Part shown: positions 12,437-21,666 of the stretch, one piece after another
How the letters are laid out: every line of letters starts with the position of its first letter
How positions within the stretch are numbered: position 1 is the stretch's first letter
Assembly: GCA_030591105.1 (NCBI GenBank)
Contig: JAUVBS010000002.1
Coordinates: forward strand, 1-22,877
DNA from: a bacterium
Lineage (GTDB): Bacteria > Krumholzibacteriota > Krumholzibacteriia > LZORAL124-64-63
Direction of reading: 5' to 3'
Length of the DNA stretch: 22,877 nt
The notes under the pieces: model-generated
Told to the model about the DNA's origin: nothing
Databases searched by the model: none
What the model saw: only the letters and a program-made list of their open reading frames with translations
Program-made: the position numbers and the translations under genes

Positions 12437-13549
12437 TCAGTCCGGATCATTCGTGGACGACCGGTTCAGACCGAGAAGAGTCCGCGCAGCGACCTCATCG
12501 ATGCGCAACTGCGCGACCAACTCCTCGACCCCGGCGAATTTGCGTTCCGCACGGAGTCGCCTGAGGAACTCGATCTTGATCGTGCGACCGCGCAGGTCGC
12601 CGTCGAACGAAAAGATGTGCGCTTCTACCCGCGGGACCGGCAGGCCTTCACCGTGGAAGGTCGGCACCTTGCCATAGTTCAGCATACCGCCGAAGACAAC
12701 CCATTCGCTCGGTGCCGTGCTCACCAGATCGCCCTGGCGGTCCACCTCCGGTAACGCCTCGGTGATGTGGCCGAGTACACCGTCCTGGCGACCTACACGC
12801 GCGATGTCGCCCGGCATCTGAACGCGAACGGCGTAGACCCCCGGCGCCGGCAGTAGCTTATAGGGATCCAGCGGTACGACGTTGGCAGTCGGATAGCCGA
12901 TGGTGCGGCCGCGACCGTCGCCGGGTGCAACTTCACCCCACAACGCGTACGGTCGCCCGAGCATCGCTTCAGCTTTTTGCGGGTCACCGGCACGCAGCGC
13001 ATCGCGGATGACTGAACTACTGATGGTATCGCCTCCCTCGCGCAGAGCGCTGCAAACCTCGAGGGTATAGCCCAACTCCTCTCCGAGCGCCTCGAGGGTC
13101 CGTGCATTCCCGCGACGATCCGCGCCCAGGTGTGCATCGTAGCCGGCCACAAAGTGCTTCATACCGAGATACTGAACCAGGAAAGTATCGACAAAAGAAC
13201 GGTAGTCGAGCCTGGCAAGCGCCGGGCAGAAATCGGCCGCAACCACCAAGTCGAGCTGTGCTTCGTGCAGCGCTGCCAGCTTTTCTCGCCAGGTCGTCAG
13301 CAGGAACGGCTCCGGGTCCGTAGTGAGGACCAGACGCGGGTGGTGCCGAAACGTGAACACGCAGCCGGTATCCAGCAACCGCCGGTTCTTCGCTTCCCCT
13401 ACACAGGAAAGGAGTTCCCGATGGCCGCGGTGCAACCCGTCAAACGAACCGACCGAGAGCGCCGTCGGCCCCAAATGTTCGCTCGGTAGATCGCATTCTC
13501 CCGCGACGATCCGGGTGATATACTCCTCCGTCAGTCGGATCATGCGCAT
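12437..13549 (-). CDS. ribF: Bifunctional riboflavin kinase / FAD synthetase
   Basis: A 370-residue RibF, which phosphorylates riboflavin to FMN and adenylates FMN to FAD in the cytoplasm. N-terminal FAD synthetase domain: SVGSFDGLHRGH (32-43, the nucleotidyltransferase G-x-F-D-G-x-H-x-G-H motif), FTFRHHPRLVL, AGYDAHLGADRRGN (135-148) and ISSSVIRDAL (176-185). C-terminal flavokinase domain: GRTIGYPTANV (214-223, with the P-T-A-N that binds ATP/Mg), NYGKVPTF (291-298) and VEAHIFSFDGDLRG (308-321, with the catalytic Glu). The kinase domain is unusual. About 35 extra residues (246-283) separate GVYAVRV from the next strand, and the usual N-I-G-x-R-P-T-F reads NYGKVPTF. The frame opens at TTG 13555, but ATG 13549 has GAGAGG 7 bp upstream and is preferred. 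It follows truB by 2 bp, as in many bacteria. Confidence 0.93.
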   Translation of the reverse strand: MRMIRLTEEYITRIVAGECDLPSEHLGPTALSVGSFDGLHRGHRELLSCVGEAKNRRLLDTGCVFTFRHHPRLVLTTDPEPFLLTTWREKLAALHEAQLDLVVAADFCPALARLDYRSFVDTFLVQYLGMKHFVAGYDAHLGADRRGNARTLEALGEELGYTLEVCSALREGGDTISSSVIRDALRAGDPQKAEAMLGRPYALWGEVAPGDGRGRTIGYPTANVVPLDPYKLLPAPGVYAVRVQMPGDIARVGRQDGVLGHITEALPEVDRQGDLVSTAPSEWVVFGGMLNYGKVPTFHGEGLPVPRVEAHIFSFDGDLRGRTIKIEFLRRLRAERKFAGVEELVAQLRIDEVAARTLLGLNRSSTNDPD

Positions 13550-13551
13550 GA

Positions 13552-14574
13552 TCAAGCCTCTCGGCTAGCCGGCTGCCGATCTCCGAACACCGCCAGCGTG
13601 CGTGGCGCGCCGGTATGCGGGTCGGTGGCAGCTACGGCGACGAGTTCACCCTCGGGATCGCAATACTTGAATCGAGGCGGTGCGTCCGAGCCGTCTAGCC
13701 AATCGACCGCCGGTTGCCCACCTTGGCGCAACCAGTTCGCCCGCCGGGTGCCGATGGTGTGCGTCGCCAGGTGCGGCAAGGCGGCCGCCAACGAGCGCAG
13801 GACCGTCAGCGTGGCCACTGGATCGGACAGCTCAACAGCCGGCCGTGCCGCCTCCACCACGAACGGTCCGACCCGTGTTCGCCGCAGGGCGTGAACGTGC
13901 CCGACGCTACCCAGCGCCGCCGCGATGTCGCGAGCGAGTGAGCGGACGTAGGTACCGCTCGAGCAGTCGATGGCCAGGGTCGCTTCGTACACGAGACCAT
14001 CTGCGGCCGTCTCCACCCCAGGGTCGGTAGCAATCTCTTCCGGCGCCAATCCCCAGCGGGTTGCCAACAGCTCCAGACGCGCGATCCGGACGCTTCGTGC
14101 GTCGGGCTCGGGGACGACCTCACCGCGTCGCACTCGTCGGTGGAGCGGCTGACCGCCTCGCTTGAGCGCCGAAATAACGGGTGGTATTTGGCGCACTTCG
14201 CCCCGCCAAAGATCGAGCGCGGCGGGGAGGTCTCGTGGATCGGCGGGGACCGGTCGCCGCGCCGTTACAGTGCCGTCGCGATCGTGCGAGTCCGTGCCCA
14301 CCCCGAAACGGACGACTGCCGTGTATGATTTATCCAGCCCCACCAGAAAACGGGACAGCCTTACACCACGGCCGACCAGGACGAGCAACAGACCCGTGGC
14401 CAGCGGATCGAGGGTTCCAGCGTGGCCACATTTCAGTCTGGCTCGACGCCGGCGCTCGGCCGGCGCAGCCTCCGACCGAAGGCCGACCAGGCCACGGCGG
14501 ATACCGTCCACCACCGCGAACGAGGTCGTTCCCGCGGGTTTGTCGACCAGCACGATACCATCGGTCGCGCTCAT
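13552..14574 (-). CDS. truB: tRNA pseudouridine-55 synthase
   Basis: A 340-residue TruB, which makes pseudouridine at position 55 in the T-loop of tRNAs. Seen: GIVLVDKPAGTTSFAVV at 6-22 (family start), CGHAGTLDPLATGLL at 49-63 with catalytic Asp56, YTAVVRFGVGTDSHDRDG, the IPPVISALKRGGQPLHRRVRRGE stretch and SSGTYVRSLARDI, a conserved active-site segment. About 12 Arg/Ala/Glu-rich residues (around 34-46) are inserted before the catalytic loop. The C-terminus is a divergent PUA-like region, about 60 residues longer than in the shortest TruB proteins. ATG 14574 has a strong GGGGAGGA just upstream. It lies 59 bp after rbfA/nrnA and directly before ribF, the conserved order. Confidence 0.95.
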   Translation of the reverse strand: MSATDGIVLVDKPAGTTSFAVVDGIRRGLVGLRSEAAPAERRRRARLKCGHAGTLDPLATGLLLVLVGRGVRLSRFLVGLDKSYTAVVRFGVGTDSHDRDGTVTARRPVPADPRDLPAALDLWRGEVRQIPPVISALKRGGQPLHRRVRRGEVVPEPDARSVRIARLELLATRWGLAPEEIATDPGVETAADGLVYEATLAIDCSSGTYVRSLARDIAAALGSVGHVHALRRTRVGPFVVEAARPAVELSDPVATLTVLRSLAAALPHLATHTIGTRRANWLRQGGQPAVDWLDGSDAPPRFKYCDPEGELVAVAATDPHTGAPRTLAVFGDRQPASREA

Positions 14575-14633: not shown

Positions 14634-16040
14634 TCACGCGGCGGGCAACGCCGCCGTCAACTCCACCACCAAACGTTGCAGGACTGCTTCTCCGTCACCC
14701 TCGATGGTACAACCAGCGGCTTGGCGGTGGCCGCCACCACCGTAGTTAGCAGCCACGGACTGCACGTCGCCGTCGCCACGCACGCGCAAAGATACGCGCC
14801 AGACATCGGTCTCGAGCTCCTTCAGAAGCGCCACGTACTTGACCCCCTCCACCGCGGTGGCAAGGTTCACGAACCCCTCGGAGTCGGCCAGCTGAGCACC
14901 GGTTTTGGCGAGCATCTCCCGGGTGACGAGGGCCGTCACGATACGGCCGCCGGCATGGTAGACAAAACTGCCGAGTACCTGCTCCAGCAAGGCGATCCCG
15001 GCCGGGTGGTAGCGATGCAGGGTTTGCCTCGCAACCGCGGCCGTATCGACACCCTGCGCCGCCAGCTCTCCGGCGAGCTCGAACGTCAGTGGCATCGTGT
15101 TATCGAAGCGGAAGCCACCGGTGTCGTTGACCAGACCGGTGTAGATGTTCGTCGCCATCGCTACCGTAATTGCGAACGGTTCACACAGGCCGCCGGCTCC
15201 CCGCGCCAACTCGTCAATTACCCGATGCACAAGGGTACAGGCCGAACACGATCGTTCGTCGACCCAGCCCGGTAGCGGTGCCTTGCGCCCGCTGACCAGA
15301 TGGTGATCGATGCACCAGATTTCTGCGGTACGGTCGAGAGTCTCGGCGAGGTGACCACAACGGTCGGTGCGGTGGCAATCGACCAAGAGTACTAGATCGG
15401 GCGGCCGAGTCGTGTACACCTCGGGTGCATCGTCCGCCAGCGATACCGCCGCGAATCCAGGTAGGTCGGCGAGGCCTAACGGCGGATCGGCGTAGCACCA
15501 GACGGTCACCTCTTTATCGATGCCAGCGAGGGCCTCACCCATGGCCAACGCAGCACCCATGGCGTCCGGATCCGGATTCCAGTGAGGGACGACCCAGACC
15601 CGCCGAGCTGCACATAGCGCTCGCAGCAGTTCAGCCGGCGGTCGGAGGTCGGTCAGTTGCAATTTACCGCGCCGTTGTGCTTCCGTCTCGAACTCGCCCC
15701 GTTGTTCGAGATCATGCAGGACGCTTTCAACATCCTCGCTGCGCTGCAGCGAATCGTCATAAACGAAGCGTAACTCGGGTGTCTGCCGCAAACGCAGCGC
15801 ACCGGCCAGTCGCCCTTGCAGAAACCCGCGCGCCTTGCGAAGACCGGTCAGACTCTGTTCACGCTCCTGCTCATCCCCGAGCACCGAGACATATACCTTG
15901 GCCACCGAATGGTCCCGGTTCAGCTCGACGCTACCGACGGTAACGAAACCGACTCGCGGATCTTTGACCGCGGTTTCGAGTAGCAGGCTCAGAGTCTTGC
16001 GGACCGAGTGGTTGAGTTTGCGGGTCTTGTAGGGGTCCAT
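14634..16040 (-). CDS. rbfA-nrnA: Fusion of ribosome-binding factor A (RbfA) with a DHH/DHHA1 nanoRNase-type phosphoesterase (NrnA-like)
   Basis: A 468-residue protein with two complete domains. Residues 1-115 are RbfA, a 30S maturation factor: VKDPRVGFVTVGSVELNRD (25-43), AKVYVSVLG (47-55), RLRQTPELRFVYDDSLQRSEDVESVL (83-108). Residues about 138-468 are a DHH-DHHA1 phosphoesterase like NrnA, which degrades 2-5-nt RNAs and dephosphorylates pAp: HWNPDPDAMGAAL (153-165, metal ligands His153, Asp157, Asp159), VDCHRTDRCG (Asp221), CIDHHL (Asp245, His246, His247), NDTGGFRFDNT (Asp306) and GGGGHRQAAG (434-443, DHHA1 substrate loop). All expected catalytic residues are present. The linker (116-137) is charged and has no stop or frame break. 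ATG 16040 has GGAAGG 7 bp upstream. In many bacteria rbfA and nrnA are separate neighbours in this same position, so a fusion fits an ancestral gene pair. Confidence 0.93.
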   Translation of the reverse strand: MDPYKTRKLNHSVRKTLSLLLETAVKDPRVGFVTVGSVELNRDHSVAKVYVSVLGDEQEREQSLTGLRKARGFLQGRLAGALRLRQTPELRFVYDDSLQRSEDVESVLHDLEQRGEFETEAQRRGKLQLTDLRPPAELLRALCAARRVWVVPHWNPDPDAMGAALAMGEALAGIDKEVTVWCYADPPLGLADLPGFAAVSLADDAPEVYTTRPPDLVLLVDCHRTDRCGHLAETLDRTAEIWCIDHHLVSGRKAPLPGWVDERSCSACTLVHRVIDELARGAGGLCEPFAITVAMATNIYTGLVNDTGGFRFDNTMPLTFELAGELAAQGVDTAAVARQTLHRYHPAGIALLEQVLGSFVYHAGGRIVTALVTREMLAKTGAQLADSEGFVNLATAVEGVKYVALLKELETDVWRVSLRVRGDGDVQSVAANYGGGGHRQAAGCTIEGDGEAVLQRLVVELTAALPAA

Positions 16041-16088
16041 CGTGTCGCCTTCCCGGCCGCGGTCGGCTCTAACGGGGTTCGTTCACGA

Positions 16089-16117
16089 ATGATCGTAACA
16101 ACCAGGTATAGTGGCAA
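16089..16117 (-). promoter_or_regulatory. Candidate internal promoter for rbfA/nrnA
   Basis: TTGCCA and GATCAT with a 17-bp spacer. The -35 matches consensus at 5 of 6 positions and the -10 at 4 of 6. It lies directly after the long inverted repeat, and the implied start site is about 40 bp before the rbfA ATG. It could restart transcription after a structured or terminating infB 3' end. Confidence 0.33.
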
Positions 16118-16171
16118 CGATACCCGTCGGTATGCTCTTCGCGCGGCGCGAAACGAACCGACGGGTATCGT
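16117..16171. repeat. Perfect 15-bp inverted repeat with nested hairpin, infB-rbfA gap
   Basis: The arms ACGATACCCGTCGGT (16117-16131) and ACCGACGGGTATCGT (16157-16171) are exact reverse complements. Inside the 25-nt loop is a second perfect stem, TTCGCG-CCG-CGCGAA (16138-16152). As RNA this would be a very stable hairpin with an internal loop. No T-run follows on either strand, so it is not a standard intrinsic terminator. It could be an RNase III processing site, an mRNA 3'-end stabiliser (REP-like), or a protein-binding palindrome. No second copy was noticed in this window. Confidence 0.8.
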
Positions 16172-16203
16172 CATCCTGCGTGTGCTGGGCGTCGGCGCCG
16201 GTG

Positions 16204-19023
16204 CTACAGCTCGGTACGGGCAACTTTCTCGATTTCGTAAGCCTCGATGACATCGTCGGGCTGAATCTCGTGGAAATTCTCCAAACCGATGCCGCACTCG
16301 TAACCCTGGGCCACTTCCTTGGCGTCGTCCTTGAATCGTTTCAGGGAACTGATCTTGCCTTCGAAGACCACGACCTCCTCCCGTACCAGGCGTGCCCGCC
16401 CGTTACGGACGATCTTACCGTCGAGCACGAACGACCCCGCGATCTGCCCCACTTTGGGAATCCTGAAGACCTCGCGAACCTCGGCCCGGCCGGTGGAGAC
16501 CTCGCGCTCGATGGCCGAGAGCAGACCGGCCATCGCCTTCTTCAACGTGTCGACCGCTTCGTAGATGATGTCGAAGACCTCGACGTTGACGTTGTGCGCA
16601 TTGGCCAGATCCTTGATCGCGGCGCCGGGGCGTAGATGGAACCCGAGGATCATCGCTCCGGTGCCGTCAGCCAGCAGAACGTCCGATTCGCTGATGGCGC
16701 CGACCGCTTTGTGCACGATCTTCACCTGTACCTCTGCGGTATTAAGCTCCAGCAGCTGGTCGGCAAGCGCCTCGACCGATCCCGCCACGTCACCCTTGAT
16801 GATGATCGGCAATTCCTTCAGGTCGCCACTGGACATCATTTCGGCGAGGTTATCCAGGCTGATTTTCTTCTTGGGCGACGTCAGCTGTTGCTGCCGTTTC
16901 TGTATCTTCCGCTTGTTCGCTATGTCGCGTGCTTCGCGTTCGCTGCCCAGCACGTAGAATCGGTCGCCCGCCTCCGGTACGTCAGCGGCGCCGAGAACCT
17001 CGGCGGGTTGGCCAGGCTCGACCTGCACGAGCTTCTCGCCACGCTCGTCCACCAGACCACGCACGCGGCCGTGTTGCATACCGACCAGGAAGATGTCACC
17101 GACCGACAAGGTCCCCTTTTCGACCAACAGCGAGAATACGACGCCGCGGCCCGGCTCCTTACGCGCCTCGATCACGACACCACGCGCGTTCCCCTTGGGG
17201 CTCGCAGTCAACTCGAGAACTTCGGCCTGCAGGTGGACCAGCTCCAGCATCTTATCGAGATTCAGACCCTGCTTGGCCGAGATCTCCGCGCTGAGAATCT
17301 CGCCACCGAATACCTCGATGACGATATCGTGCTGCATTAATTCCTGCTTGACGCGATCGGGCTTGGCGTCGGCCAAGTCGATCTTGTTGATCGCCACGAT
17401 GATCGGTACGCCGGCTACCTTGGCATGGTTAATCGCCTCGACGGTCTGTGGCATCACGCCGTCGTTGGCGGCCACCACCAGGATCACGATATCGGTGACC
17501 TGGGCACCGCGGGCACGCATGGCGGTGAACGCGGCATGACCCGGTGTATCGAGGAACGTAATCGGCCCACCCGGCGTAGCCACGGTGTAAGCACCAATAT
17601 GTTGCGTGATGCCTCCCGCTTCGCCGGCGATCACGTTGGTCGCTCGTATCTTGTCGAGCAGCGAAGTCTTACCGTGATCGACGTGGCCCATGACCGTGAC
17701 TACCGGCGGCCGGTGGACCAGGTCGCCGACCGGAGTCTCCTGCTCCTCGAGGAGCTCCTCGCCGTACTCGCTGAGGAATTCCACGTCGCGCTCGTACTCC
17801 TCGGCGAGCAGATCGATGTACTCGCGATCCAGACGTTGGTTCATGGTCGCCATCACGCCCAGGCCGAGAAGCCTGGTTATGATGTCTCGCGCCGGTACGT
17901 CGAGTTTCTCGGCGAAATCCTGGACGGTGATGAATTCGGTGATCCTCACCACCTCCTCGCTCTGCTCATCGGCCTCGATCTGGCCGCCCTTGCGACGGCG
18001 GCGTTTCCCGGCTCCGGTCTCCAGTTGCGCCATGGTCTGCTTCAACTGGCGTGCGACCTCCGCCTCGTCCACCTTCTTTTTCTTGACGCGGCGACGCTTG
18101 GTGCGCGGTAACGTTTCCTGAGCAGCCCGCTCGGTCACGCGTTTGCGGATCGCCGCCTTGACCGACTCCTTGACCGACTCCTTACTGACCTTCGGTTTCG
18201 CGGCCACAGGCGGCGCTTCGGATGCGGGGCGGACGATATCCCCCACCTTGAAGCCGTCGTTCTTACGGCCCACCTGGTCTGCCTGGTCTGCCTGGTCCGT
18301 CTGGTCCGGATCCACAACCGCCGGCGGTTCGGTAAGCGTCGGCTCGGCAGCAGCCTGTGGGGTTTCGGCCGGCGCTGCCGTCTCCGCCACCGCGGCGACT
18401 TCCGTCGCGGCATCGGCATCGGCGACCGGCTCGGTCACCTCGGTGTCAGCGGCGGCGGCCTCGGCGACAACCTCGGCCTCGGCGACAACTTGGTCCTTCT
18501 TGACCAACCGTGCCTTCCGACGTAACTGTGCGCTCTTTTCGCGCTTGATTGCACGCTCGGTTTCCTGCGCGTCGCGCTCGGCGTGCTCGGCCGCTTTCTT
18601 GTCCGCAGCCACCTGTGCGGCGGCCTTCCGCCTTGCCTCTTGCTGCCGGGCAACAGCTGTCTTCGTGCCCGCTTTCTTGATCACGACCACCTTGGGCTTG
18701 GCCGGACCCTTCTTCTTTTTGGCGACTTTCTTCTTGGTCGCCTTCTTCTTCGGTTCGGGCGCGGGCTCCGGCTTGGGCAGCGGCTTGAGACTCGCGACAT
18801 GCTTCAGCTTGTCCGGATCGAGACCGTGGGCCTTGGCGTAGTTGATCCGTGCCAGCTCACGCTTGCGCTGGAAGACCGTGTGAACCTTGTCCACCAGATC
18901 GTCTTCGACGACGCTCATGTGGCTCTTGACTTCGGCCTTCATCTTCTTCAACAGGACCGTTATGGCCTTGCTGTCGACGCCGTAGTGCCGTGCCAGTTCA
19001 TAGACCCTGAGATTTCTGGCCAA
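16204..19023 (-). CDS. infB: Translation initiation factor IF-2
   Basis: A 939-residue IF-2, the GTPase that brings initiator tRNA to the 30S subunit and drives subunit joining. Domains: IF2_N at 1-50 ([21 protein letters not shown]); a long Lys/Ala/Glu-rich linker at about 80-355; a second IF2_N at about 360-415 ([22 protein letters not shown]); the G domain from about 438 with GHVDHGKT (446-453), GGITQHIG (470-477), DTPGH (492-496), NKID (546-549) and SAKQG; then domains II-IV ending in [37 protein letters not shown] sequence. The start is TTG 19023, with GGAGG 9 bp upstream; the ATG at 19030 is out of frame. The linker contains a short D-Q-A/T repeat and is low complexity. It sits between ylxQ (45 bp) and rbfA/nrnA (163 bp), the conserved order. 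Confidence 0.96.
18273..18308 (-). repeat. 9-bp tandem repeat in the IF-2 linker
   Basis: Four in-frame 9-bp units, two of them identical, encode D-Q-T/D-Q-A-type triplets (about residues 240-250 of IF-2). They lie in the unconserved linker, where length change should be tolerated. This looks like slippage in low-complexity coding sequence. Confidence 0.6.
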
Positions 19024-19068: not shown

Positions 19069-19470
19069 TCAACGACCCCTGCGTCTGGCGCCGGAGTCCT
19101 CGCCTTTGCGCACCGATGGTTGTGGGCGCTCGTCCGATCTTGCGTCGACCGTCGCAGCGGTCGCGCCGAGTCGGTCGATCCCTGCGACGAACCCGGCATC
19201 GCCGACCGCGACGATCGCCAAATCGCGGCGTCCTAGCGCCGCTGCTAGCTCGTCGCGGCTGACCAGTCCGGCCACGAAACCGCGGACCGGCTGCAGACCA
19301 TAATAGCGGCGTCGCTGGGCCTCACCCGCATCGTGAGCAACGACGACCAAGGGCCGCTTGCCACGCCGGACGAGCTTCTCGACCGCAGAGGCGCCAACCG
19401 CCAGCTGGCCGGCCCGCTGGGCCAGACCCAGCAGAGCCAGAAGCTTGGTGGCCGTCTCACGTTCATCCAC
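19069..19470 (-). CDS. ylxQ: L7Ae/L30e-family RNA-binding protein, YlxQ-like
   Basis: A 133-residue protein of the ribosomal L7Ae/L30e/S12e/Gadd45 family, found between nusA and infB in many bacteria. Seen: KLLALLGLAQRAGQLAVGASAVEKLVRRGKRPLVVVAHDA-type N-terminal part (about 8-48), with the L-G-L-A-x-R-A-G and the lysine/arginine-rich RNA-contact region of YlxQ, and RDLAIVAVGDAGFVAGI near residue 85, matching its final strand and helix. A basic, low-complexity tail of about 30 residues (DERPQPSVRKGEDSGARRRGR) is extra. The start is GTG 19470; an in-frame stop lies 24 bp upstream, so no earlier start exists. The nusA stop is only 30 bp away, which leaves no room for the YlxR gene common here. 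The precise role is unproven; RNA binding is expected from the family. Confidence 0.87.
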   Translation of the reverse strand: MDERETATKLLALLGLAQRAGQLAVGASAVEKLVRRGKRPLVVVAHDAGEAQRRRYYGLQPVRGFVAGLVSRDELAAALGRRDLAIVAVGDAGFVAGIDRLGATAATVDARSDERPQPSVRKGEDSGARRRGR

Positions 19471-19500: not shown

Positions 19501-21012
19501 TCACTCCGCCGATTCACCTTTACCGAAGGAACCGGTCTTGCCGAGCTCGTCGACCGTCTCGTCGGTTGCCATCGGTTCATCCGACAGCTGACTCTCGTCG
19601 AATAGCGGCTGATCCGTAGCTTGGCCACCTTCGACCTCTTCGGCCTCGATCATCTCGTCCGAGACGACCGTGTCTTCGTCGAGCTTGCTTTCGTCGAAAA
19701 GCTCCTGCTCCTCCGCCTCCAGCTGGGCTAGCTCGGCGGTCACAGTCTCTTCGATCATCCGGGCCAGTTCGTCTACGGTGGCTCGGGCGGTCGCGGCCAA
19801 CGCCAGAGTCTGCTCGTCGGTTATACCCTCGATCTCGCCGAGGCTTTCGACTGATGTCGCGGCCAATTCCGCGATGGAATTGATATCGGCGGCGTTCAGC
19901 AATTCGGCGATTTCCGGAGTCACGCCCGACATCTCTTCGAGTCTCATGGACATCTCGTCGCTCACACGCTGACGAATACTCCACTCCCGTCCGCTGACCA
20001 GATCGATCTTCCATTCGGTCAATTTGGCGGCCAAGCGAACATTCTTGCCCTCTTTCCCGATCGCCTTGCTCAACTGGTCGTCGCTGACGATAACCGTCGC
20101 TTCGCCCTGCTCCGGTCGCAGGATGATGTTGCTGACCTCGGCTGGGCTGAGCGCTCGGGAGATCAGCAGACTCGCCTCGGCGCTCCACGGCACGATGTCG
20201 ATACGCTCGCCGGCGAGTTCGCGCGTGACCGCCTGGACACGGCTACCCTTCATGCCGACGCACGAACCGACAGCATCGACGCGGTCATCGTTGCTGACGA
20301 CGGCGATCTTCGAACGTGTGCCGGGTTCACGAGCGACCGCCCGAATTTCGACGATGCCCTCCTGGATTTCCGGCACCTCTTGCGCGAAGAGCAACTTCAA
20401 GAAACCGGGGTGACTGCGCGACAGGATGATCTGCGGACCTTTGGCATTATCGAGCACCTCGATGATCAAGGCGCGGATCGTCTTACCCTGGTGCAATTTC
20501 TCGCCACGAATCTGCTCGCGGTACGGCAGCAACGCTTCGACGCGACCGAGGTTTACCAACACGTTGCCGCGGTCGACCTGTTGGATGGTGCCGACGATGA
20601 TCTCGTTGACACGGTCCTTGTACTCCTCGAATATCTGTGACCGTTCCGCTTCACGCACTTTCTGGACCAGGATCTGCTTGGCGACCAGAATGGCGTTCCG
20701 GCCAAACTGGTCGAGCGGTAATTCCCAGCGCACCTCGTCGCCCAACTCGACTTCCTCGCCGAACTCGATCTGTGCCTCATCCAGCGAAATCTCCACATCG
20801 GGATCGTCGAGTTCTTCGACTACGGTCTTGACATGCTCGACTACCATCTCGCCGGTATCGGCGTCTACCCAAGCGTCGATATTCGCTTCGGCGCCGAGCT
20901 TCTTCTTGGCGGCCGATTGTAGACCAGCGACCAGTGATTCGATGATGATCTCGCGGTTGATGTGCTTTTCCCTCACGATCATCTGGAGGGCATCGAGCAC
21001 GTTGTAATCCAT
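19501..21012 (-). CDS. nusA: Transcription termination/antitermination factor NusA
   Basis: A 503-residue NusA, which binds RNA polymerase and nascent RNA to modulate pausing, termination and antitermination. Layout: N-terminal domain 1-130 (start MDYNVLDALQMIVREKHINREIIIESL), S1 domain about 135-200 (GTIQQVDRGNVLVNLGRVEALLPYREQ), KH1 about 230-285 (DRVDAVGSCVGMKGSRVQAV), KH2 about 300-350 (VSDDQLSKAIGKEGKNVRLAAKLTEWKIDL), then a helix-hairpin-helix repeat region (GVTPEIAELLNAADINSIAELA). From about residue 420 there is a very acidic tail of some 80 residues with two copies of LFDES-x-L. ATG 21012 has AGGAGAGA at good spacing. It lies 75 bp after rimP. Confidence 0.96.
   Translation of the reverse strand: MDYNVLDALQMIVREKHINREIIIESLVAGLQSAAKKKLGAEANIDAWVDADTGEMVVEHVKTVVEELDDPDVEISLDEAQIEFGEEVELGDEVRWELPLDQFGRNAILVAKQILVQKVREAERSQIFEEYKDRVNEIIVGTIQQVDRGNVLVNLGRVEALLPYREQIRGEKLHQGKTIRALIIEVLDNAKGPQIILSRSHPGFLKLLFAQEVPEIQEGIVEIRAVAREPGTRSKIAVVSNDDRVDAVGSCVGMKGSRVQAVTRELAGERIDIVPWSAEASLLISRALSPAEVSNIILRPEQGEATVIVSDDQLSKAIGKEGKNVRLAAKLTEWKIDLVSGREWSIRQRVSDEMSMRLEEMSGVTPEIAELLNAADINSIAELAATSVESLGEIEGITDEQTLALAATARATVDELARMIEETVTAELAQLEAEEQELFDESKLDEDTVVSDEMIEAEEVEGGQATDQPLFDESQLSDEPMATDETVDELGKTGSFGKGESAE
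19576..19701 (-). repeat. Repeated acidic segment in the NusA tail
   Basis: LFDESKLDE (residues 438-446) and LFDESQLSDE (470-479) are two copies of one short motif, each followed by further Asp/Glu-rich sequence with the D-E pattern. They look like a duplicated segment in an otherwise unconserved extension. Confidence 0.6.
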
Positions 21013-21087: not shown

Positions 21088-21666
21088 TCACGACTTCCGT
21101 CGTCGTTGTTCGCGGCGCTCGCGTTTCTCAGCTTTGCGGCGACGACGATCGGCCCCGATCAACGCCTGGACATCGAACTCCGGATCTAGATTGGCTTCGA
21201 CCAGCTGATCAAGCGAGATCCTCAGTTCGGTCGGCGGGCCGCCTGATGCCGCCTCTTGCTGGAGTACTAGCCCCTGCTGGTCGCACCCCAATAGCTTGCC
21301 ACGGAACTTCTCCGGTTTGCCGCGGCGGTCAATCTTCAGCTCTACATTCTGCCCCACCGCCGCAGCGAAGTGCGCCGCCGTGCGCAACGGCCGCCGCACG
21401 CCGGGCGAGGAGACCTCGATCACGTAAGCCATCGAGAAGACGTCGGCCTCTTCGAGTAGCATACTGACCGTACGCGAGGCGCGCGTACAATCGCCCAGGT
21501 CGACACCGTCGGCGGCATCAACGTACAGCCGTAGCTGTAGCCGCCCGCCCCCGCGAAAAACACGCACGTCGAGCAGCTCATAGCCGTCGGCGGCAAGATC
21601 TTCCTCGACCAGGGCGATGACCCTTTGCGCCAGGGCGTAACGATCCTGTTTCCGGTCACCGGTCAC
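21088..21666 (-). CDS. rimP: Ribosome maturation factor RimP
   Basis: A 192-residue RimP, needed for 30S subunit maturation. N-terminal domain: RVIALVEEDLAADGYELLDVRVFRGGGRLQLRLYVD (16-51), then LGDCTRASRTVSMLLEE and YVIEVSSPGVRRPLRTAAHF (80-99), the family's hallmark (L-E-V-S-S-P-G-x-x-R-P-L). The C-terminal SH3-like domain includes RGKLLGCDQQGLVLQ. A basic tail of about 25 residues (RRRRKAEKRERREQRRRKS) is longer than usual and probably touches rRNA. The start is GTG 21666, with GAGGA 9 bp upstream. It is first in the operon and is preceded by a promoter and attenuator-like leader. Confidence 0.94.
   Translation of the reverse strand: MTGDRKQDRYALAQRVIALVEEDLAADGYELLDVRVFRGGGRLQLRLYVDAADGVDLGDCTRASRTVSMLLEEADVFSMAYVIEVSSPGVRRPLRTAAHFAAAVGQNVELKIDRRGKPEKFRGKLLGCDQQGLVLQQEAASGGPPTELRISLDQLVEANLDPEFDVQALIGADRRRRKAEKRERREQRRRKS

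Follow-up and report, generated by a model that had tools for sequence, protein, structure and literature searches.

The window analysed here (the whole 22,877-nucleotide stretch of contig JAUVBS010000002.1, from a genome of the Krumholzibacteriota) encodes an authentic, lineage-fixed and probably recurrent fusion of two known proteins, RbfA and an NrnA-like DHH/DHHA1 phosphoesterase. The fusion is fixed in the window's family. We think it quite likely that the gene makes one bifunctional chain, an RbfA-type 30S factor followed by a nanoRNase of the NrnA kind, which would have arisen from overlapping genes and would carry its nuclease beside the mRNA path. No paper on the fusion was found in the open literature, a scope that leaves subscription papers and preprints aside, in keeping with the original prediction; papers naming both RbfA and NrnA do not describe it in the portions available. 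The fusion is undescribed in the open papers searched, yet present in sequence databases: the listed homologs with a source name are labelled either RbfA or RecJ-like/NrnA, and the fusion therefore stands there under one-domain names.

Gene organization and domain identity

The gene is one open frame of 468 aa on the minus strand, with its ATG at 16040 and its stop ending at 14634. It lies in a minus-strand gene row assigned by Pfam as rimP, nusA, L7Ae-like, infB, the fusion, truB and ribF. The features are:

14634..16040, minus strand: RbfA-DHH/DHHA1 fusion protein, 468 aa (single open frame, Pfam, homologs)
15717..16025, minus strand: RbfA KH-II domain, residues 6-108, with K26-D27-P28-R29 and A70/G72 (Pfam, alignment, contacts from the available part of PMC9917171)
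15603..15704, minus strand: connector, residues 113-146; from about residue 127 onward it matches, by eye, the start of unfused NrnA
15660..15662, minus strand: codon 127, TTG here, in line (by eye) with the codon at which nrnA begins in unfused relatives
15135..15602, minus strand: DHH catalytic domain, residues 147-302 (Pfam, alignment)
14667..14906, minus strand: DHHA1 substrate-binding domain, residues 379-458 (Pfam)
14727..14741, minus strand: GGGGH motif, residues 434-438 (alignment)
16204..19023, minus strand: infB (IF-2), upstream of the fusion in the same gene row (Pfam)
13552..14574, minus strand: truB, next downstream of the fusion (Pfam)
12437..13555, minus strand: ribF (FAD synthetase/riboflavin kinase; Pfam)
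19069..19470, minus strand: L7Ae-like gene (Pfam)
19501..21012, minus strand: nusA (Pfam)
21088..21666, minus strand: rimP (Pfam)

Rfam and tRNA scans of the window gave no match. A hairpin with two perfect 14-base arms, single-copy in the window's genome, is located at 16118-16170 between infB and the fusion, and the fold of the whole gap (16041-16203) has a z of -4.23. Across the family loci this gap is 74-539 nt long; it folds at z ≤ -3.5 in 7 of 12 loci (60 shuffles each), and the sequences differ.

All three domains scored above their Pfam cut-offs: RBFA (PF02033) at residues 6-108 with 101.4 bits (cut-off 34.7), DHH at 147-302 with 47.9 bits (28.1) and DHHA1 at 379-458 with 33.4 bits (25.9). 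With the single frame, these domains bear out the original prediction of an RbfA and an NrnA-like DHH/DHHA1 module in one 468-residue protein, the strand being minus. The RbfA is complete, as had also been claimed; its N-terminal part scores over the cut-off with the RbfA equivalog TIGR00082 as well (96.8 bits, cut-off 51.15). The DHH half reached 80.3 bits against the NCBI NrnA equivalog NF053633, below the 350-bit cut-off, and because of this it is called NrnA-like here. No RecJ model (equivalog TIGR00644) was among the 11 families listed for the fusion protein. Among the relatives of known structure picked up by sequence were M. tuberculosis NrnA/Rv2837c (E 1.4e-32) and, on the RbfA side, structures with a best E of 3.5e-21.

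The AlphaFold2 model of the fusion had a mean pLDDT of 92.1 and a pTM of 0.74, at which the domain arrangement is left unsettled. The RbfA part was modelled in the order α1-β1-β2-α2-α3-β3 (KH-II) followed by a helix at residues 97-113, which agrees with S. aureus RbfA as described in the available part of PMC9917171. The best Foldseek matches of the model were NrnA-type phosphodiesterases (highest target TM 0.90); the best 50 were DHH-type structures, and RbfA structures were not among the matches listed.

Functional residues

B. subtilis NrnA uses H20, D24, D26, D80, H103, H104 and D156, while R86 and F162 lie close to its substrate (PMC5593865, available part). Mapped by spacing, these correspond to H153, D157, D159, D221, H246, H247, D306, R227 and F312 of the fusion, in which the expected DHH/DHHA1 residues are present (H153, D157, D159, D221, D245-H246-H247, D306 and GGGGH at 434-438). 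The metal ligands (H-x3-D-x-D, D, DHH, D), GGGGH and R227 were found in 121/121 rows of the alignment and F312 in 120/121; the claim that every expected active-site residue is in place thus holds for the metal ligands and GGGGH in all rows. Outside the family, 23 fused proteins could be compared: all of them keep the seven metal-site residues and 18 keep R227, while F312 was present in none, with H or Y in its place. S. aureus RbfA contacts the 16S 3' end via D27-R29 and A70-x-G72 (PMC9917171, in the part available). Of these rRNA-contact positions, K26, D27 and R29 were found in 121/121 rows, P28 and G72 in 120 and A70 in 117. Judged by their residues, both halves are probably active.

According to the available text of PMC9757072, NrnA proteins attack 2-4-mers at the 5' end, and the available text of PMC5593865 has NrnA acting from both ends. 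The NrnA proteins assayed in PMC9757072 showed no significant pAp hydrolysis within the part of the paper available, and nanoRNA is therefore a better substrate guess than pAp. The pAp turnover originally proposed is doubtful, though PMC4014445, in excerpt, cites one NrnA, from M. pneumoniae, as having pAp phosphatase activity.

Spread of the fusion

A homolog search of ∼5.8 billion clustered proteins gave 316 matches among 7995 scored candidates. Of the 120 homologs listed from these 316, 119 had RBFA, DHH and DHHA1, the nearest at 96%, 89%, 77% and 67% identity. In the exception, P0075, only the DHHA1 call is missing and GGGGHRQAAG is still present. Some family members (P0104 and G038/G039, the latter being L111) have an insertion inside DHH near residues 281-287; P0104 is 46 residues longer.

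The survey with the fusion protein covered 80 genomes of the phylum, 38 from the window's family and 42 from other families. Within the family 33 of the 38 genomes matched; 31 of the matches span the junction, and every one of these is fused, with all 14 genus groups represented. The matches in G058 and G050 run into contig ends and are uninformative on fusion. An apparent internal TGA in three family matches (G067, G064, G048) proved on reading to be the terminal stop. In the other families 38 of the 42 genomes matched: 23 had separate neighbouring genes, 11 had the genes far apart or on different contigs, three had one part only and one (G010) was fused. The 23 separate pairs comprise 14 read by script, two that were read (G026 and G020) and seven taken from differing open-frame lengths. 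Together with the named loci, they confirm that rbfA and nrnA-like genes are neighbours elsewhere, as had been supposed. Relatives with separate genes, which had been named as a sign of a local error at the junction, did not occur among the nearest relatives but only further away, in the other families of the class and outside it, and they therefore do not point to a local sequencing error.

Among 79 named loci, 17 were fused at 53-66% match (nine of them named Krumholzibacteriia or -ota), and two fused Clostridia, L043 (Lachnospiraceae) and L060 (Family XIII), were found in the same set; their genomes have one RBFA each. From L034 to L094, 56 of the 58 usable loci were separate. L042 was called fused by script and was separate when its sequence was read. 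G105, also of the Clostridia, is fused too, and it was the only one among the RBFA matches listed from 392 genomes to lie in a frame of more than 380 codons. Searches with RbfA parts returned RBFA+DHH+DHHA1 in 10/13 and 15/16 matches among fusion-length proteins, shares of DHH partners that are biased upward, since these searches began from fused proteins and the query was counted. Other partners of RbfA were IF-2 (P0124, P0125), an alanine-racemase-like domain (P0126) and an ABC/SMC-like protein (P0147). In P0124 and P0125 the end of IF-2 is joined to RbfA; both are single clusters in which frame errors are possible. P0142, which is fused, has the source name 'Actinobacteria bacterium RBG_19FT_COMBO_54_7'. 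Beyond the phylum, similar fusions are present in Clostridia and in a group of which one member has an actinobacterial label.

Phylogeny and number of origins

A quick DHH tree was built from 103 rows, 33 of them fused and 70 separate. The family formed one clade in it, with a support of 100; its rows were the window, L111-L114 and 15 proteins from the 120 listed. The fused and separate labels change eight times on this tree, at least five of the changes being forced by starred branches; given the long rows L050, L060 and P0133 and the long branches meeting at L050/L060, the stars are less trustworthy. The tree skipped L073, L085 and L093, for which there was no RbfA match, omitted P0121 as the same protein as L043 and did not contain P0124-P0126; P0134-P0147 came later. 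In a careful tree of 25 rows the fused G010 grouped with three unfused members of its own family (94/88), and a single clade of all fused rows was not rejected (p-AU 0.107). Inside the phylum, two fusions and one fusion plus one split are equally parsimonious. Between phyla, recurrence of the fusion is supported.

The connector and the origin of the join

Residues 113-146 are 34 long in 121/121 rows, with G115 invariant and E116, F117, D131, P135 and L138 each present in at least 113/121. Constant length as a sign of coupling was rejected, as 307 of the 434 stretches of 34 residues across the protein are equally indel-free, and so are the whole of 60-280 and 291-419. By this control a neutral join was weighted up and an action of the nuclease on the pre-30S particle was weighted down. 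In this respect the join is on a par with the remaining protein and no more settled. In its letters the connector is the most variable segment (mean top-residue frequency 0.60 vs 0.71-0.77). AlphaFold2 placed helices at 97-113, 120-125 and 136-144, with a pLDDT of 82-98 for the block and 76-80 at residues 91-110.

Column 127 holds L in 69 and M in 50 of the 121 rows. In 23 distinct family linkers, from 30 of the 31 loci given, codon 127 is ATG in 12, CTG in six, CTC in three and CGA and CGC in one each. It is a probable fossil of the nrnA start, with the start function no longer kept; an internal start at this site was rejected as a conserved feature, 11 of the 23 codons being other than ATG. 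Where the class has the two genes as separate neighbours, rbfA ends within the likely start of nrnA in six pairs (as GTGA, TTGA or an 8-base overlap after ATG), the starts having been picked by eye and in these six pairs only. Overlapping stop and start codons are a typical layout of translational coupling. The fusion would have arisen from such overlapping neighbours, probably via a one-base frame change at the junction, and the family has kept it in fixed form from its common ancestor on.

Other RbfA, DHH and Orn copies

The fusion is the sole RBFA found in the window's genome (G000, 82.6% complete). Among the 36 family genomes with a DHH match, 33 have at most one match over the cut-off besides the fusion; such a match is RecJ in G043 (435.5 bits, TIGR00644 cut-off 396.9) and, in G068, a protein of the DHHA2 type. 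More than one was found in three genomes: G071 with a RecJ fragment, G045 with a frame that carries phage-like domains and falls below the DHH cut-off once rescored, and the window's own genome. Here recJ lies in two contig pieces (345.9 and 90.4 bits, both below the cut-off of 396.9), and contig C82 carries a further, standalone NrnA-like DHH/DHHA1 gene (L001/L119; 106.6 bits with the NCBI NrnA model, cut-off 350). The C82 gene was not seen in other family genomes in a protein search of the phylum genomes and is either contamination or a recent gain; the GC of its contig (0.638 vs 0.630) does not distinguish the two. It adjoins a sulfate adenylyltransferase-like frame, named by eye. The DHH-like domains L126 and L127 (G045, contig C157) lie near a Dam-type methyltransferase and a phage protease domain, perhaps in a prophage. 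None of the 38 family genomes has an Orn over the cut-off, and G049 gave a single weak match (20.1 bits); the control for this search was positive in 3 of 14 genomes, E. coli included.

Discussion

In the bifunctional chain that we favour, the N-terminal RbfA would hold the 3' end of 16S rRNA in late 30S assembly, and the C-terminal DHH/DHHA1 half would be a two-metal nanoRNase of the NrnA kind, degrading RNA of a few nucleotides. In S. aureus RbfA, the helix made of residues 97-115 contacts S7 and lies over part of the mRNA path (PMC9917171, available part). Since the model of the fusion has a helix at 97-113, as in S. aureus RbfA, we infer by homology that the DHH module lies near S7 on a pre-30S particle: the chain would exit RbfA after helix α4, which reaches S7 on the 30S head in S. 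aureus, and this would leave the nuclease dangling next to where the mRNA runs on the immature subunit. We likewise infer that the chain stays uncut and has both activities, along with any pre-30S coupling; functional coupling is plausible. The fixed ratio of RbfA to nuclease foreseen in the original prediction would hold only if the chain is uncut and without an internal start. Against the bifunctional chain stand the score of the DHH half, far under the NrnA equivalog cut-off, the by-eye R-x-S-x-R in place of the B. subtilis R-x-R-x-R patch, the incomplete conservation of R227 and F312 outside the family, a domain arrangement that the pTM of 0.74 does not fix, and the additional NrnA-like gene that the window's genome has on contig C82.

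A sequencing or assembly error at a stop between two genes is virtually impossible: stop-separated genes do exist in other families of the class, but the idea is refuted by the same architecture in 119/120 listed homologs from several data sources and in 31/31 readable family genomes. That the join has no function has a probability only somewhat short of even. Two independent working enzymes would then have been joined when the stop between overlapping genes was lost, which is compatible with the bifunctional chain and denies coupling only. The overlap of neighbouring rbfA and nrnA in the class fits such an event, as do the sporadic occurrence in Clostridia (G105 alone among the matches listed from 392 genomes, with L043 and L060 found separately) and a connector no more indel-free than most of the protein; fusion in every one of the 31 readable family genomes and the near-invariant connector residues argue against it. 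Genes that overlap could also fuse repeatedly with no coupling of function between their products. It is unlikely that the gene ends up yielding two proteins, whether because a protease cuts the connector or because translation also starts at the former nrnA codon. The ATG in 12 of the 23 linkers, the Met in 50 of the 121 rows and the variable letters of the connector would suit this outcome, but the other 11 codons are CTG, CTC, CGA or CGC, the TTG of the window has no clear Shine-Dalgarno sequence by eye, and the connector block is modelled with a pLDDT of 82-98.

A new role for the DHH half, such as trimming of the 16S 3' end or blocking of the mRNA path in place of bulk nanoRNA clean-up, seems improbable. 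RbfA binds the 16S 3' end and its C-terminal helix faces the mRNA path, and the authors of PMC9917171, in the part available, suppose that another bacterial protein may complete the block of this path, replacing the extension of mitochondrial RBFA. Against such a role, the active site is fully NrnA-like. The nanoRNase candidates searched for in the family were Orn and DHH proteins; as no Orn passes the cut-off and few DHH proteins exist besides the fusion, some further enzyme would have to do the clean-up. There is likewise only a small chance that the fused nuclease acts on the assembling subunit itself, the DHH module by S7 and the mRNA path clearing short RNA and excluding mRNA until RbfA leaves. 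The short RNA would be leader or trailer scraps, or bound nanoRNA able to prime or block. If true, the module would be a counterpart of the C-terminal extension of mitochondrial RBFA, reached independently by several lineages.

We know of no physical joining of 30S maturation to the last step of RNA decay, two housekeeping processes that the fusion, if functional, links. The fusion is also a hint that RbfA and NrnA may cooperate where they are separate proteins, whose genes lie side by side in many phyla, and its recurrence makes a physical coupling of ribosome building and RNA clean-up a testable question.

Comparison with known systems

The N-terminal half shares with RbfA (TIGR00082/PF02033) the fold order, the KDPR and AxG contact residues, the position between infB and truB and the single copy in the window's genome; the fusion differs by an enzyme-like second module behind the C-terminal helix. 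Mitochondrial RBFA with long terminal extensions is likewise an RbfA with a C-terminal addition possibly in the mRNA path, whereas the addition here is a folded two-domain phosphoesterase, and no shared origin is claimed. The fusions of Clostridia (L043, L060, L101), with the kin of L043 (P0122, P0123), and the fusions P0128-P0132, P0127 with P0134-P0146, and P0133 have the same domain order and metal ligands. The fusions outside the family stand on other branches of the tree, from which P0134-P0146 are absent, and in P0121-P0123 and P0127-P0146 the stretch aligned to residues 113-146 has 18-34 residues.

In comparison with NrnA-type phosphoesterases (B. subtilis NrnA, M. tuberculosis Rv2837c, T. 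maritima TM1595), the metal ligands, GGGGH and the fold are the same, while the fused module sits behind RbfA and scores below the NCBI NrnA equivalog cut-off. The R-x-R-x-R nanoRNA patch of Bacillus NrnA, described for close homologs in the available part of PMC5593865, reads R-x-S-x-R here (R415, S417, R419; by eye, with a one-residue gap assumed). The equivalents of R227 and F312 are also shared between NrnA-type enzymes and the fusion of the window.
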